This document shows positions 7,066-63,559 of a stretch of 64,000 nucleotides of DNA, piece after piece. The notes below the pieces were generated by a model that worked only from the letters and a program-made list of their open reading frames with translations, made no database searches and was not told the DNA's origin. This DNA is from Spraguea lophii. Lineage: Eukaryota; Microsporidia; Spragueidae. The stretch lies in the NCBI GenBank assembly GCA_001887945.1, contig LDOQ01000088.1, forward strand, positions 1 through 64,000. Direction: 5' to 3'. A program made the translations under genes and the position numbers. Each line of letters opens with the position of its first letter. Within the stretch, counting starts at the first letter, position 1.

Positions 7066-7578
7066 AATAAATTATGATAAAATCAACTTGGCCCAGTGGT
7101 CGTAGAGTGATAACCAAGTAATAAGCCTAACGGGTTCGAATCCCTTCCTAATAATAATTTTCGAAAAAAGAATAAAAGGTAGAAGAGAAGAGAAAAGAAA
7201 GGTTGTTGAGTGGGCAATAAAAGGTAGATAGCGTATCATTAGCTATGCCTTGTACGATATGCTTATTATTAGAATAAAACCATGTTTGACTGATGTAATT
7301 GCAATCCCTGTATTGATTTGTGATTCAACTGATATTATGTCAAGAAAGAGGGGTTAGAAATTTCATTGAGAGCGATAAAATGATGAGTGCATCATATGCA
7401 AAGTATTGATGCCCTGGAGGATAAACCAAGATGAGATTAATACATATCTGTATCGGAATCAATTAATACAAGTTTAAACATATTTTAAGAATCAAAGATC
7501 ATTAACCACGATTGGCCATAACTGCCAGAGGGACTTCTATAAATAAAAGTTTCATTTAAAAAAATAAATTACGACAAA
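7066..7578 (+). repeat. SINE-like repeat, copy C (best copy, with target-site duplication)
   Basis: Element about 7082-7562 (~480 bp). The head (about 7088-7150) reads like a tRNA gene: an A-box-like 'ttggcccagtggtcg' and a perfect B box 'gggttcgaatccc' about 35 bp on, the internal RNA polymerase III promoter arrangement. A body of about 400 bp with no open frame follows, ending in 'ataaaagtttcatttaaaa'. It is flanked by 16-bp direct repeats (aataaattatgataaa at 7066-7081; aataaattacgacaaa at 7563-7578) that match at 14 of 16 positions, as expected for an aged target-site duplication. The same unit recurs at seven other places in the window, plus a 3' stub at 30385-30435. Confidence 0.85.
7088..7150 (+). 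promoter_or_regulatory. tRNA-like head with A box and B box (pol III promoter) of repeat copy C
   Basis: The B box GGTTCGAATCC at about 7131-7141 matches the tRNA T-arm consensus, and the A box lies about 35 bp upstream. I do not call it a functional tRNA: acceptor-stem halves do not pair visibly and the sequence continues into the repeat body. Confidence 0.7.
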
Positions 7579-16265: not shown

Positions 16266-16763
16266 ATATAAAGACAAAAATACTTTTTTAATGAAACTTT
16301 TATTTATTAAATTTTCCTGGACGGGTGTGGTCAACCGTGGTCTACGATTTTTGGTTCTTAAAGCATATTCAAACTCGTATTAATTAGTTTTACTATAAAT
16401 ATACATTAATATCATTTTACTTTCTGCTCCGAGTGTTAGGATTGTGCATATGGCGTACGTTGCCGCCCTCTCCCAGTTTTTTAAAAATTCCTAACTTCTT
16501 TCTTGACGTAGTATTGATGATTAAATCTCAAATCAGTACAAGGATTGCAAGCACACCAGCTAAACACAGTTTAACCTAATAACGGGTATAATACAACATA
16601 TATTTAATTATACGCTATTGAATTCATATCCACTCAACAGCTTTTTTCCTCCCCCTTTTTTTATTTGAAAATCCTTTTAAATAAAAAATTTGAACCCGTT
16701 AAGCTTGGGATTTGGTTACCACTTCATAACCATTGAATCTGATGGATATAAAATAAAAATAAC
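16266..16763 (-). repeat. SINE-like repeat, copy D
   Basis: Well-preserved minus-strand copy in the Esa1-MetAP2 intergenic region. On the minus strand the tRNA-like head at about 16740-16680 carries 'caatggttatgaagtgg' (A-box region) and 'aacgggttcaaat' (B box). The body block is at about 16490-16560, and the 3' end with 'aaaagtttcattaaaaa' is complementary to 16284-16312. A-rich direct repeats at about 16266-16283 and 16746-16763 (both starting atataaa) could be target-site duplications but need a gap to align. Confidence 0.8.
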
Positions 16764-23146: not shown

Positions 23147-23568
23147 AACGTTATTCATAAGCTAACAGGTCTGAATCCTTAACGAGGCAATTTTTGAAGG
23201 TAAAAGAATAAAAAATAATATGAAAGAAAAACAATTGAATTGTTGCTAGGTTGCTAGTATGGATTGCTTTTACATTCTACGAAATCTTATATCATATAAG
23301 TCAGTTATTGATGATGTAAATACAATATCTTATTAATTCGTGGCTCTATTACAAACCACCGAGAAAAAGTGTAATAGACACCATATACAACCTTTAGCAA
23401 TGTGACCGATACGGTAAGGGGATGTTAATGCATGTATACAATGAAACCTGTTAATGTAAATATACAATCGCTTTGAAGAGCCAAAAATATTGAACTCTGG
23501 TAAGGTTATGTTGATCAACCATTTGAATATAATTAAAATGTTGTTATTAAAAAAATTAGGAAAATATT
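23125..23568 (+). repeat. SINE-like repeat, copy E (diverged)
   Basis: Plus-strand, older copy. The B-box region has become 'aacaggtctgaatcct' (about 23165-23180). The 3' half (about 23410-23530) follows the order of copy C: 'gttaatgcatgtatac', 'ctgttaatgtaaatatacaa', 'agagccaaaa', 'ggttatgttgatcaac'. It ends in 'ataattaaaatgttgttattaaaaaaatt', a tail shared with copy G but not with copy C, so E and G may form a subfamily. Confidence 0.6.
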
Positions 23569-23684: not shown

Positions 23685-24155
23685 ATAATTTTTTTAATGA
23701 AATTTTTATTTATAAAAGTTTTCTGGCCGGCTGCGGCCTATCATGCTCTATAACTTTGGCTCCTAAAACATATTTAAACTTGTACTAACTGGTTTCGCTA
23801 CAGATATACATTAATCTAATTTTACCTTGTGCTTCAGAATGTTCGGATTTTACGTATGATGCAATCATCATCCTATAATTTTTAATAAGATTCTAATATC
23901 TTTTTTGATATAATATTGGTTGACTCGGAAATCAATACAAGAATTGTAACTGCAGCAGTTAAACATTACTTTAATCTGGTGGTTGATTGTAATATAAGGT
24001 ACGGCTAATGTTACATTATCGAACCTTCACCTACTCAATAACTTTTCTCTTCTATTTCTTATTTTTTTAAAATTCTTCAGAGTGGAGGATTCGAACCCGA
24101 CAGACTCGGGATTTAATCGCTATTTCACATCCATTTGACCAAGATAACCTGTTTT
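23685..24155 (-). repeat. SINE-like repeat, copy F
   Basis: Well-preserved minus-strand copy. The head on the minus strand (about 24145-24075) has a clear A-box-like 'cttggtcaaatggatg' and a perfect B box 'gggttcgaatcct'. Body landmarks include 'gatgatgattgcatcatacg' and 'aaagtaatgtttaactgc'; the 3' end is complementary to 'tttttttaatgaaatttttatttataaaag' at about 23690-23720. It lies back to back with copy E. Confidence 0.82.
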
Positions 24156-30384: not shown

Positions 30385-30435
30385 ATTTTTTTAAAACGAA
30401 ATTTTTATTTATAGAAGTTTCTTAGTCGGGAAAAA
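30385..30435 (-). repeat. 3' stub of the SINE-like repeat
   Basis: The stretch 'aaacgaaatttttatttatagaagtttcttagtcggg' closely matches the 3' terminus of copy F (23690-23735) and copy D. No further body is recognisable. It looks like a 5'-truncated insertion, the form that target-primed reverse transcription often leaves. Confidence 0.55.
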
Positions 30436-36056: not shown

Positions 36057-36630
36057 GGCTTGTTTTTTTTAAAAAAAATATAATCTGGATTGTCGGTGTT
36101 TTAAAACAATATTTTATTTTTGTTTTCTACAAGAATAGGAGAACCCCTTTCACCCACCTATTACTAAGGCTTGCAATTATTATATTTCACTAATAATAAG
36201 ATTCAAATATATTGTGTAAAGATACCGAGATCCTTTTACCTTCTAAAACCACATCTGAAGAATAATATTTTATATTTTCATTTAAATGGTTGTAATTGGA
36301 TATTCTCCAATAGAATTTTAAATATCCTTTTTTTAAAATATTATTTTTTTAACAAAATTGTATGTTATTAAAGATAATTATTTTACAATTTATTTTTTTA
36401 ATAATACACAACAAGTATTTACTATTATTTCTAAAAAAAGCAATTGGTATTATAATCAACCGAATGAAATTTCCTTTCTTTTAATAAAATATCCAATTTT
36501 CTATATCGTAAATCTTTGTTTTAAAATGAACAAATAATTATAATTTTATTAATATGTCATAATTTGTCGTCAATGTCACTTTTAGTTGATATTCCTTTTT
36601 GATTTTATCAAGAAAATTTCGTACCCATCT
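36057..36630. other. divergent intergenic spacer
   Basis: AT-rich DNA between the Nse3-like and hydrolase starts. A 66-codon open frame at 36171-36371 has no CCC context and a chance-like composition; I do not call it. Confidence 0.5.
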
Positions 36631-37728: not shown

Positions 37729-37864
37729 ATATTAAAATTAATTAAATTTTATGATATAAGAAAGATTTTTAAATTTCCTTCTTTTACTATTAAAACATTT
37801 CATATTAAATTTAAAAAAAATATATTAAAAAAATATGTTGAATGAATGATAGTTAGAAAATATA

Positions 37865-38200
37865 ACTTGATTATACCATGTACAATGATTCTGTTACCAG
37901 ATTAAAGTAATACTTAGATATTGTAATTACAACCTTCTTATTAATTTATTACTTAATTAACATTATACCAAGAAAAAAGCAAGAATCTTATTAGGGTATA
38001 AGAGCAGTGTTTAATCTACGCTTGAATTCCTAACATCTTTGAATATAAGATAAAAAGAGATTAATACATGCATGTGGCGGAATCTGTTAATACTTGTATA
38101 TTGCATGCTTTAAAAAATTAAATAGCTTAAACTATAATATACAGTCAACGAACAGAACACACATTATAATTAAAATGTTATTATCTAAAAAATTAAAATT
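37865..38200 (+). repeat. SINE-like repeat, copy G (diverged, head missing)
   Basis: Plus-strand relic. 'accagattaaagtaat' at 37898 matches the same block of copy F, 'acattataccaagaaaaaagcaagaatcttatta' matches the 'atattatatcaaaaaagatattagaatcttatta' block, and 'ttaatacatgcatgtggcggaatctgttaatacttgta' matches copy C. The tail 'ataattaaaatgttattat' is shared with copy E. The tRNA-like head is not recognisable. Confidence 0.6.
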
Positions 38201-40984: not shown

Positions 40985-41440
40985 AATAACACTATAATTA
41001 TTATGAAAACATTCCTATTGATTATGGTCAACCATTGTCTGAGACCACTGGTTTCTTAACGAACAAATAACTCGTATTAACTACCTTTATTACGTATATA
41101 CATTAATTCCATTCTATTTTGTATTTTAGAGTGCTGTAATTTTATGTATTGTGCAATCATCATTCTATTCTCCTTAATAAAATTCCAACCTTCTTTTTGG
41201 TATAATAGTGACTCAGTAATAAATTAATAGAGAGGTGTAACTATATCAATTAAACATTAATTTAATATGTAATGGAATTATTATATAAGGTATGATCAAA
41301 ATAAGTCATTGGACCATCTGAACATTTTTTTACCTTTTTAATTTTTTTGAAATTTTTCTGAATAAAGTATTCGAGCGTTGGGCGTGTAATTTGGTCACCA
41401 TCCTACAACCACTAGCTTAAACAGGCTAAATATTATTTTG
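40985..41440 (-). repeat. SINE-like repeat, copy H
   Basis: Minus-strand copy. The head on the minus strand (about 41430-41360) reads 'ttaagctagtggttgtaggatggtgaccaaatta' then a decayed B box 'gctcgaatac'. Body landmarks 'ccaaccttctttttggtataata' and 'gattgcacaatacat' (complement) are shared with copies D and F. The 3' end near 40990-41050 holds 'tggtcaaccattgtctgag', matching copy D. Confidence 0.75.
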
Positions 41441-62512: not shown

Positions 62513-62520
62513 GATTTTTC

Positions 62521-62564
62521 GGTAAAAGTTGCTTTGAGGACCCCCCCTTTTTTGCGTTTATATA
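62521..62564. repeat. left terminal inverted repeat of the Merlin element
   Basis: 44 bp, complementary to 63471-63514 with a single difference at the C/T-run junction. Confidence 0.92.
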
Positions 62565-62595: not shown

Positions 62596-63501
62596 TTATA
62601 TCTTTCCCTTTTTATCGTGTGAAATTTTCTCAAATGGGCCCATATGAAATTTAAGAAATTTAAATTCCGAAATATGCCATGAAAAATTTTTTTTAACATT
62701 AGTTCCTCGTGTTTTAACATATATCTTTAGTTTACACTACAGATTTTCAATGTTTTGAGTGTATATCTCTTTGTTTTCCGGGGACGCAAAATTGATTTTA
62801 TGATTTACCCAAAAATGTTTAAATCCTATATTTTTAAGGCTAAGATGTCCTTTCCAACCATCTTTTATTATTGTAGAATCCTCTTTTATATTTTTTAAAA
62901 CTATATTTTCAATGGGTTCACGGTTTCTTGTATGTACCATTTCAAAAAACCATCGTTTGGAGGTTCGTGATATTACACCAATGTATTATAATTGTTTAAA
63001 CCATCGGCTAATGTTATACTTCCTTTTATTGAAACAACTTTCATCAACTTCCACTATGTCTTTATACCCACCTATTTTTTCATATTCAGTTTTATTAATA
63101 ACGAGTTTTATAAGATCAATAACTTTGTTAATTAGTTTGTATTAGACTCCCAGTTCGTGTTTAATGTCTTTTATTCGTGTTTCACGAGACCATTCATATA
63201 TTATTAAAATTATATTTTTTAATGATATCCGAATACCTGAAAATACAGAACTGTCTCGTATTGAAATAGATGCTTTATTACATCTTTTAGTTTGACAAAC
63301 CCATATTAATATATCCGATACCTTTTTACTCTTTAAATACATCTCTTTTTTGCATTTTTTACATCTTCTTATTTTATAAATTACTCCTACATTGGAGGAG
63401 AAAGTAAAAATTTTATACGATAAATTAAGTTGTTCGTACAATGCTAATCTTGTAAACATGTGTTCTGTTTTATATAAACGCAAAAAAAGGGGGGTCCTCA
63501 A
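62596..63501 (-). pseudogene. Merlin/IS1016-type DDE transposase with three in-frame stops
   Basis: A single reading frame of 301 codons runs from ATG 63501 to TAA 62596 without frameshift. It is interrupted by TAA at 63144-63142, TAA at 62988-62986 and TAG at 62739-62737. The N-terminal zinc motif has CKKC...CQTKRC. DDE motifs are VEVDESCFNKRKYN (first D, about 63060), IIKDGWKG (second D, about 62870) and YTQNIENL (E, about 62745), with VNHKINFASPENK between the last two. The TAG sits where homologues have Trp, a one-base change. The transposase is inactive unless supplied in trans. Confidence 0.9.
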
Positions 63502-63514
63502 AGCAACTTTTACC
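63471..63514. repeat. right terminal inverted repeat of the Merlin element
   Basis: Partner of 62521-62564; ends cttttacc followed by the duplicated target gatttttc. Confidence 0.92.
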
Positions 63515-63559
63515 GATTTTTCTTACAATTTATATTTTAATAATATCTTTAACCCCACA

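Follow-up and report, generated by a model that had tools for sequence, protein, structure and literature searches.

The window, by which we mean the whole analysed stretch of 64,000 nt, lies at the start of contig C34 of Spraguea lophii and has a GC content of 20-27% per 4 kb. The RPA1 encoded in it has Astathelohania contejeani as its closest named relative (49%), with Encephalitozoon and Ordospora next (44-45%), and the host was thus recognised as a microsporidian. A near full-length copy of a dispersed repeat, copy C, occupies positions 7081-7562 on the forward strand (profile match 7085-7562, E 6e-107, to be read as by construction since copy C is in the profile). It is bounded on the same strand by two copies of a 16-bp direct repeat, its target-site duplication, at 7066-7081 (5') and 7563-7578 (3'), whose match at 14 of 16 positions, as stated in the sequence-only reading, could be read directly from the sequence. 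The head of copy C carries an A box (TGGCCCAGTGG, 7089-7099, forward strand) and a B box (GGTTCGAATCC, 7133-7143, forward strand), each with 0 mismatches to the respective box motif, TRGYNNARNNG and GGTTCRANYCY.

Eight copies, A to H, had been proposed by eye. Thirty genome copies, copy C (as L001) among them, were combined into a profile, which recovered all eight at E-values between 5.6e-8 and 6e-107. The reverse-strand copies are A, a remnant at 107-466 (profile positions 91-475, E 7e-18); B, a remnant at 2548-2972 (37-474, E 1e-15); D at 16284-16736 (13-486, E 7e-84); F at 23690-24144 (6-486, E 7e-89); and H at 41003-41417 (11-464, E 2e-31). On the forward strand, besides copy C, lie the remnants E at 23162-23500 (47-435, E 5.6e-8) and G at 37836-38100 (129-400, E 2e-18), so the copies do occur in both orientations as had been claimed. 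The description of the repeat as purely intergenic was borne out, because none of the eight copies overlaps any of the 28 ORFs compared, and by coordinates the remaining five of the window's 33 ORFs are also clear of them. Together the copies make up 3,190 of the 64,000 bases. No profile match at E<=10 was found in the reversed window or the reversed searched loci. Plain blastn with copy C as query recovered the greater part of D and F, and B and G as short pieces, and gave no match at E<=1e-3 to A, E or H in the window. The additional stub proposed at 30385 is a possible 5'-truncated 3' end on the reverse strand (30387-30418, 32 nt at 91% to copy C); its 3' tail was supported by blastn (E 1.2e-6), but not by the profile (E 0.75). 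An Rfam scan of the window gave nothing at gathering level. The window also contains a 46-bp inverted repeat that is unrelated to the SINE (62519-62564 and 63471-63516, 98% identity, about 900 bp apart).

The family consensus, drawn from 30 copies, is 483 nt plus poly-A, with a GC content of 46.6%. Under ordinary gap costs copy C is 72.5% identical to it (70.5% over 482 nt by blastn, E 1.6e-55), and the window copies range from 64 to 75% identity over their aligned parts. Transitions from G/C to A/T account for 459 of the 859 mismatches of the window copies in an alignment with lenient gap costs, as expected of dead copies drifting in AT-rich DNA. No young copy lies within the window. By sequence identity the window copies are old, and young members of the family are found elsewhere in the genome.

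In the consensus the A box at position 9 and the B box at position 53 have 0 mismatches each and are 44 nt apart. Boxes had been claimed clearly for copies C, D and F and weakly for B and H. They are perfect in C and in F (reverse strand, 24141 and 24097), while the boxes of D carry 2 mismatches, with its B box in register, and none was found in B or H at up to 3 mismatches. The heads of C and F hold the only perfect A/B pairs in the window, and ten dinucleotide shuffles of the window together gave one pair at no more than 1 mismatch; pairs with 2-3 mismatches occur at chance level, as there are 20-47 of them per shuffle (10 shuffles). The body was said to have no open frame, and indeed the stop-free frames of at least 40 aa overlapping a young copy reach only 40-72 aa. 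AATAAA occurs in the consensus at 102 and 466. The longest internal T-run is 4 nt (position 78) and could end some pol III transcripts; the 3' flanks of the genome's tRNA genes have T5 or longer in 25 of 27 cases and only T4 in two.

The earlier proposal that the head is tRNA-derived stands for the promoter, which is tRNA-like, but not for a cloverleaf or a single clear parent tRNA. Compared with the genome's 57 tRNAs, the head scored nearly equally with Arg-TCG (16.75), Ser-GCT (16.0) and Leu-TAG (15.75), and these scores exceed those of 200 shuffles (maximum 11.5). However, the Rfam tRNA covariance models gave no match to the SINE head, and its fold is not better than shuffles (z -0.8), with no cloverleaf. 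For the young copy L019, Rfam gave only weak listings (RUF1 E 0.14; tmRNA T-loop E 0.11), which were taken as chance or as the T-loop alone. At the level of sequence similarity the promoter is thus tRNA-related, and this does not extend to descent from one particular tRNA.

The assembly (5.27 Mb, 73 contigs) was searched for further members of the family. Copy C as query gave at least 42 matches (best 40 of 393 candidates scored) and the consensus at least 45 (best 40 of 462 candidates scored). The 40 places scored with the consensus are near full-length and 98-100% identical to it; among the matches listed, one place is 100% identical and 5 partial neighbouring matches have 67-83% identity. 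When up to 3 mismatches were allowed, a 32-nt pattern for the head had 112 places (control 0); a 19-nt pattern for the 3' end, with 2 mismatches allowed at most, had 344 (control 7). Only three of the eight window copies (C, D and F) match the latter pattern, so the full number of remnants must be at least 344; the window density of 8 per 64 kb would extrapolate to about 660 genome-wide. By these sequence counts and identities the SINE family has several hundred copies and was active recently. In at least 10 of the copies listed a contig start truncates the SINE (C3, C19, C35, C36, C46, C47, C48, C15, C22 and C25), which indicates that the assembly breaks in SINE copies. Young SINEs were also seen inside or shortly behind older ones in the same orientation (C10:73468-74429, C12:195756-196590 and C13:89895-90905). 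In the loci searched, the profile at E<0.01 matched only SINE copies and LINE tails, and blastn of the consensus added short A-rich matches. As expected, no relatives of the SINE were found in viral contigs or in contigs of prokaryote genomes.

Consistent ends in genome-wide copies and target-site duplications (TSDs) had been named among the tests of the proposal. The ends agree in the aligned copies and are asymmetric, with poly-A at one side only. For the TSD test 37 copies were taken, of which L015 and L018 were dropped because their heads could not be placed; the 35 tested copies represent 34 distinct ones, as L013 was counted twice. An anchored repeat score of at least 12 was reached by 22 of the 34 distinct copies, or 23 of 35 with both L013 entries counted, compared with 0.34% of mispaired flanks. 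In copy C the anchored test recovered 12 bp of the repeat, 11 of them matching. Exact TSDs were found in 19 cases among L001-L030, with a length of 12-17 bp (mean 13.6); T stands at -1 in 14 of the 19 and A at +2 in 13, the latter being an uncertain count because the repeat abuts the poly-A tail. Among the 12 copies without a strong anchored TSD, five are young (L006, L007, L009, L028 and L030, 96-98.6% to the consensus). In the young copy L019 the flanking 13-bp duplication is the sole terminal direct repeat.

A SINE of this kind should have a LINE partner, as the sequence-only reading had predicted. Such a LINE exists in pieces, and its 3'UTR resembles the SINE 3' end and can form two hairpins in common with it. 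The only open LINE frame seen in the assembly (479 aa, C72:3-1439) is cut off by the contig start. This frame has similarity to the endonuclease-RT family PF14529 and to RVT_1, both under the Pfam cut-offs, and its best PDB match is LINE-1 ORF2p (E about 1e-9). The relatives of the LINE protein are mostly without names. On C21 the 3' part of a LINE runs past the stop codon into the 3'UTR, and SINE positions 360-462 align to this 3'UTR just behind the ORF stop, with a core at 407-455 of 86% identity. Five LINE copies were compared, namely the C21 copy and L080-L083. A block around AAGAACCAAAGGTC...GGCCGCAACCGGCC is present, with substitutions, in all five, and between the two common blocks the LINE 3'UTR has a stretch of about 100 nt that is absent from the SINE. 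The terminus before the poly-A reads TAAATAAA plus TTTTC in four of the LINE copies, TAATTAAAATTTTC in the C21 copy and TAAATAAAAGTTTCATT in the SINE. The SINE profile matches the LINE copies L079-L083 at E 2e-6 to 3e-12, and the LINE query gave at least 12 tails around 1819-1873, each with a place of the SINE 3'-end pattern immediately behind it (best 40 of 127 candidates). These alignments show that the SINE 3' part is homologous to the LINE 3'UTR. The SINE AATAAA may be inherited from the LINE 3'UTR, the motif being present in four of five LINE copies (L080-L083, absent from L079). The SINE body upstream of the common part, about 360 nt, has no LINE similarity in the loci compared.

The C72 RT half and the C21 3' half are linked solely by a decayed copy on C1, which has RT similarity of the C72 type together with fragments of the C21-type 3' part and itself aligns only weakly to the SINE tail (score 24 versus 84). 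Compared with shuffles, the SINE tail has a better fold (z -3.2, 1 of 200). Its two hairpins can also form in the LINE tail, but the LINE tail as a whole does not fold better than shuffles (z -1.2). Flanking repeats were recognised by eye around the LINE copies L080 and L081. The arrangement is what would be expected if the LINE enzyme copied the SINE RNA, the proposed route of mobilisation.

Other retroelements were surveyed with RVT_1, which gave 9 matches in the whole genome, 6 of them over the cut-off. Protease, RT and RNase H domains were found in the C73 element, an RT domain on C44 and a second RT-bearing element on C48; all three we read as Ty3-type. By locus name, the LTR-type elements with this reading are L070 (protease, RT and RNase H), L071 and L073 (RT matches, that of L071 containing stops). 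The RT match on C2 is telomerase (Telomerase_RBD E 1.5e-15). A second LINE type (L079:1-1155) is represented in the window by a 3' end at 36113-36248 on the reverse strand, 75% identical to L079 1018-1154; this 3' end, about 120-200 bp, recurs on C20, C47, C42, C16 and C34:114057, and its tail differs from that of the SINE-partner LINE. The zf-RVT domain was matched only at E 0.13, in a fragment of this second type. Several LINE copies lie at contig ends or no more than about 1.5 kb from them (C63:68-923, C63:11661-12516, C11:68-935, C21:1-2010, C72:3-1439, C27:59220-59973 and C34:232093-232672), on C63 at both ends in inverted orientation, and they are possibly subtelomeric.

The interpretation of the repeat as a SINE is supported by its consistent ends, TSDs, A and B boxes, A-rich tail and a LINE with a common 3' end. 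Given the anatomy, ends, TSDs, youth and 3' homology seen in the sequences, we hold with high confidence that the repeat is a SINE family, its unit about 483 nt long before the poly-A, and propose a LINE-mobilised cycle for it. In this cycle, RNA polymerase III would start from the internal tRNA-like promoter (A box 9, B box 53) and transcribe the SINE as far as its A tail. An APE-type LINE of this genome would supply the reverse transcriptase, which would recognise the 3' end of the SINE RNA, presumably via the common hairpins. The LINE enzyme would nick a T|A-type site, and the SINE RNA would be copied in by target-primed reverse transcription, giving target duplications of 12-17 bp.

Three other origins were weighed against this cycle and rejected on the ends, the TSD lengths, the termini of L019 and the scattered starts of the LINE copies. 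A non-autonomous, MITE-like DNA transposon with a chance tRNA-like stretch would also be short, dispersed, non-coding and, in the window, intergenic. However, L019 has no terminal inverted repeats, the ends are asymmetric with poly-A on one side, the duplication length varies from 12 to 17 bp, and the 3' end is homologous to a LINE 3'UTR, so that this origin is hardly credible. LTR elements usually make TSDs of 4-6 bp. The repeat could be taken for a small non-autonomous LTR element, TRIM-like or with a small-RNA head, in so far as LTR-type retroelements exist in the genome, but the 12-17-bp TSDs, the poly-A end and the absence in L019 of any terminal direct repeat other than the flanking 13-bp duplication leave it almost no probability. 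Internally deleted LINE copies, whose head would merely resemble a tRNA promoter without forming a pol III unit, come closer to the data, because the 3' quarter of the SINE is LINE-derived and truncated LINE copies with flanking repeats exist. This origin is nonetheless very improbable: the best 40 of 462 copies start at consensus 1-3 (full copies rank first, and truncated ones are under-seen), the roughly 360 nt upstream of the common part have no LINE similarity in the loci compared, neither the A nor the B box has a mismatch and their spacing is canonical, and the LINE copies begin at many different points.

A further observation on the SINE family concerns tRNA genes. At 7 of the 57 tRNA genes (loci L041, L046, L054, L069, L123, L129 and L137) a SINE junction lies 0-17 bp downstream, always in sense and never in antisense within that zone. 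From the SINE density, with a correction for intergenic space, 0.16-0.21 sense junctions were expected (P 5e-10 to 3e-9, for a zone not set in advance). The first 30 tRNA loci were chosen regardless of SINEs and gave 12 SINE matches at E<=6e-15; four of these loci (L041, L046, L054 and L069) have a sense SINE 0-11 bp behind the tRNA by projected start, and in the upstream flanks of this set two antisense SINEs start 70-80 bp away. The 130 bp downstream of the remaining 27 tRNAs served as a held-out set. Here a sense SINE lies at 13-17 bp in L123, L129 and L137, beyond the 0-11 bp of the initial observation, and two of these three are 5'-truncated (profile 319 and 268). The strict 0-11 bp zone therefore holds 0 junctions in this set, and zones of 18, 30, 50 and 130 bp hold 3 each, with P of about 1e-4, 3e-4 to 7e-4, 1e-3 to 3e-3 and 2e-2 to 4e-2, respectively; in summary P runs from 7e-5 to 3e-2 with zone width. 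L136 has a weak antisense SINE 3' end about 80 bp downstream (E 0.002).

Young copies are only mildly associated with tRNA genes. In the 100 listed of the 112 young heads, one adjoins a tRNA 3' end and four lie within 300 bp of tRNA genes, compared with 1.25 expected under uniform placement; most of the seven tRNA-adjacent SINEs should therefore be older copies. No place in the genome matched a pattern in which a T-loop motif is followed immediately by a young head, and the tRNA-adjacent copies that were read are decayed or differ from this pattern. A plain preference for T-runs was rejected as the cause of the adjacency, since T>=5 precedes, within 17 bp, 2 of 28 SINEs against a background of 11.5%. 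In the case of L054 the T-run itself seems to have been the target that was duplicated.

The observed excess may be due to targeting or to better survival behind tRNA genes. Under targeting, the SINE/LINE pair would use pol III genes as a landing pad, with the cDNA entering the termination zone in sense and finding there a safe haven within a gene-dense genome. That all seven SINEs lie in sense (7 of 7, P 0.016) speaks for some degree of targeting, and we consider the landing pad a tentative reading with somewhat less than an even chance of being right. If true, the family would be the SINE equivalent of the retrotransposons that target tRNA genes in amoebae and yeast. Survival alone, in which insertions behind tRNA genes are harmless and persist, appears similarly plausible without being probable. 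The single listed young head at a tRNA 3' end and the limited intergenic space speak for it, but harmlessness alone leaves the all-sense, close placement of the seven SINEs unexplained, and a general taste of the SINEs for T-runs is not seen in the figures given above.

Pairs of tRNA-related SINEs with LINE-derived tails are known from other genomes, such as UnaSINE1/UnaL2 of the eel. Like UnaSINE1/UnaL2, the S. lophii SINE has an internal A/B promoter, an unrelated body, the 3' end of a LINE of the same genome with stem-loops, and TSDs; unlike them, it ends in poly-A and not in short tandem repeats, has a body of about 290 nt between the head and the LINE-derived part, and occurs in a microsporidian host with no clear parent tRNA. 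As described in the available text, AfuSINE2 of Aspergillus fumigatus is a fungal tRNA SINE with TSDs of 4-14 bp (PMC5063351). By description only, the two agree in a tRNA-related head in a fungus and in TSDs, and the S. lophii SINE differs in its recognisable partner LINE and in its setting, a 5.27-Mb assembly with 20-27% GC in the window. With the mammalian T+ SINEs B2, Dip and Ves, as far as the available text describes them (PMC8466645), it has in common an AATAAA near the A-rich end (consensus 466), but it has no T-run terminator before the tail. In dictyostelids, according to the abstract of PMC5006619, TRE3 lies about 100 bp downstream and TRE5 about 50 bp upstream of tRNA genes, and one further tRNA-targeting type about 4 bp upstream. 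These too are retroelements near tRNA genes in a compact genome, whereas the junctions reported here are 0-17 bp downstream, a position without a match in that abstract, and concern only a small part of the SINE family.

For Microsporidia, the available text of PMC4202319 gives four families of non-LTR elements each in Anncaliia algerae and Edhazardia aedis, and that of PMC3614468 a repeat table for Nosema bombycis with LINE and with 'SINE 28,669 bp, 0.18%'. LINEs are therefore known in the group, and no SINE sequence, promoter, TSD or partner is described in the available parts of these two papers. The term SINE has 0 occurrences in PMC7313128 and in the available text of PMC4202319, PMC3749934, PMC10542269 and PMC12558613, the last of which breaks repeat content down into broad classes. 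Searches confined to open-access papers turned up no SINE family described from Microsporidia.

The kind of SINE is thus a known one; the microsporidian host lineage makes the family notable, and the tRNA excess is its most surprising part. Microsporidia are a textbook case of genome reduction. Here a reduced genome holds several hundred recently amplified retroposons that would need reverse transcription in trans, and the family gives Microsporidia a SINE with a candidate partner LINE. Its insertions offer a marker set for population work, and the genome lets one study in nature how retroelements persist when DNA is mostly coding. With the excess behind tRNA genes, the safe-haven idea can be put to the test in a further lineage of eukaryotes.
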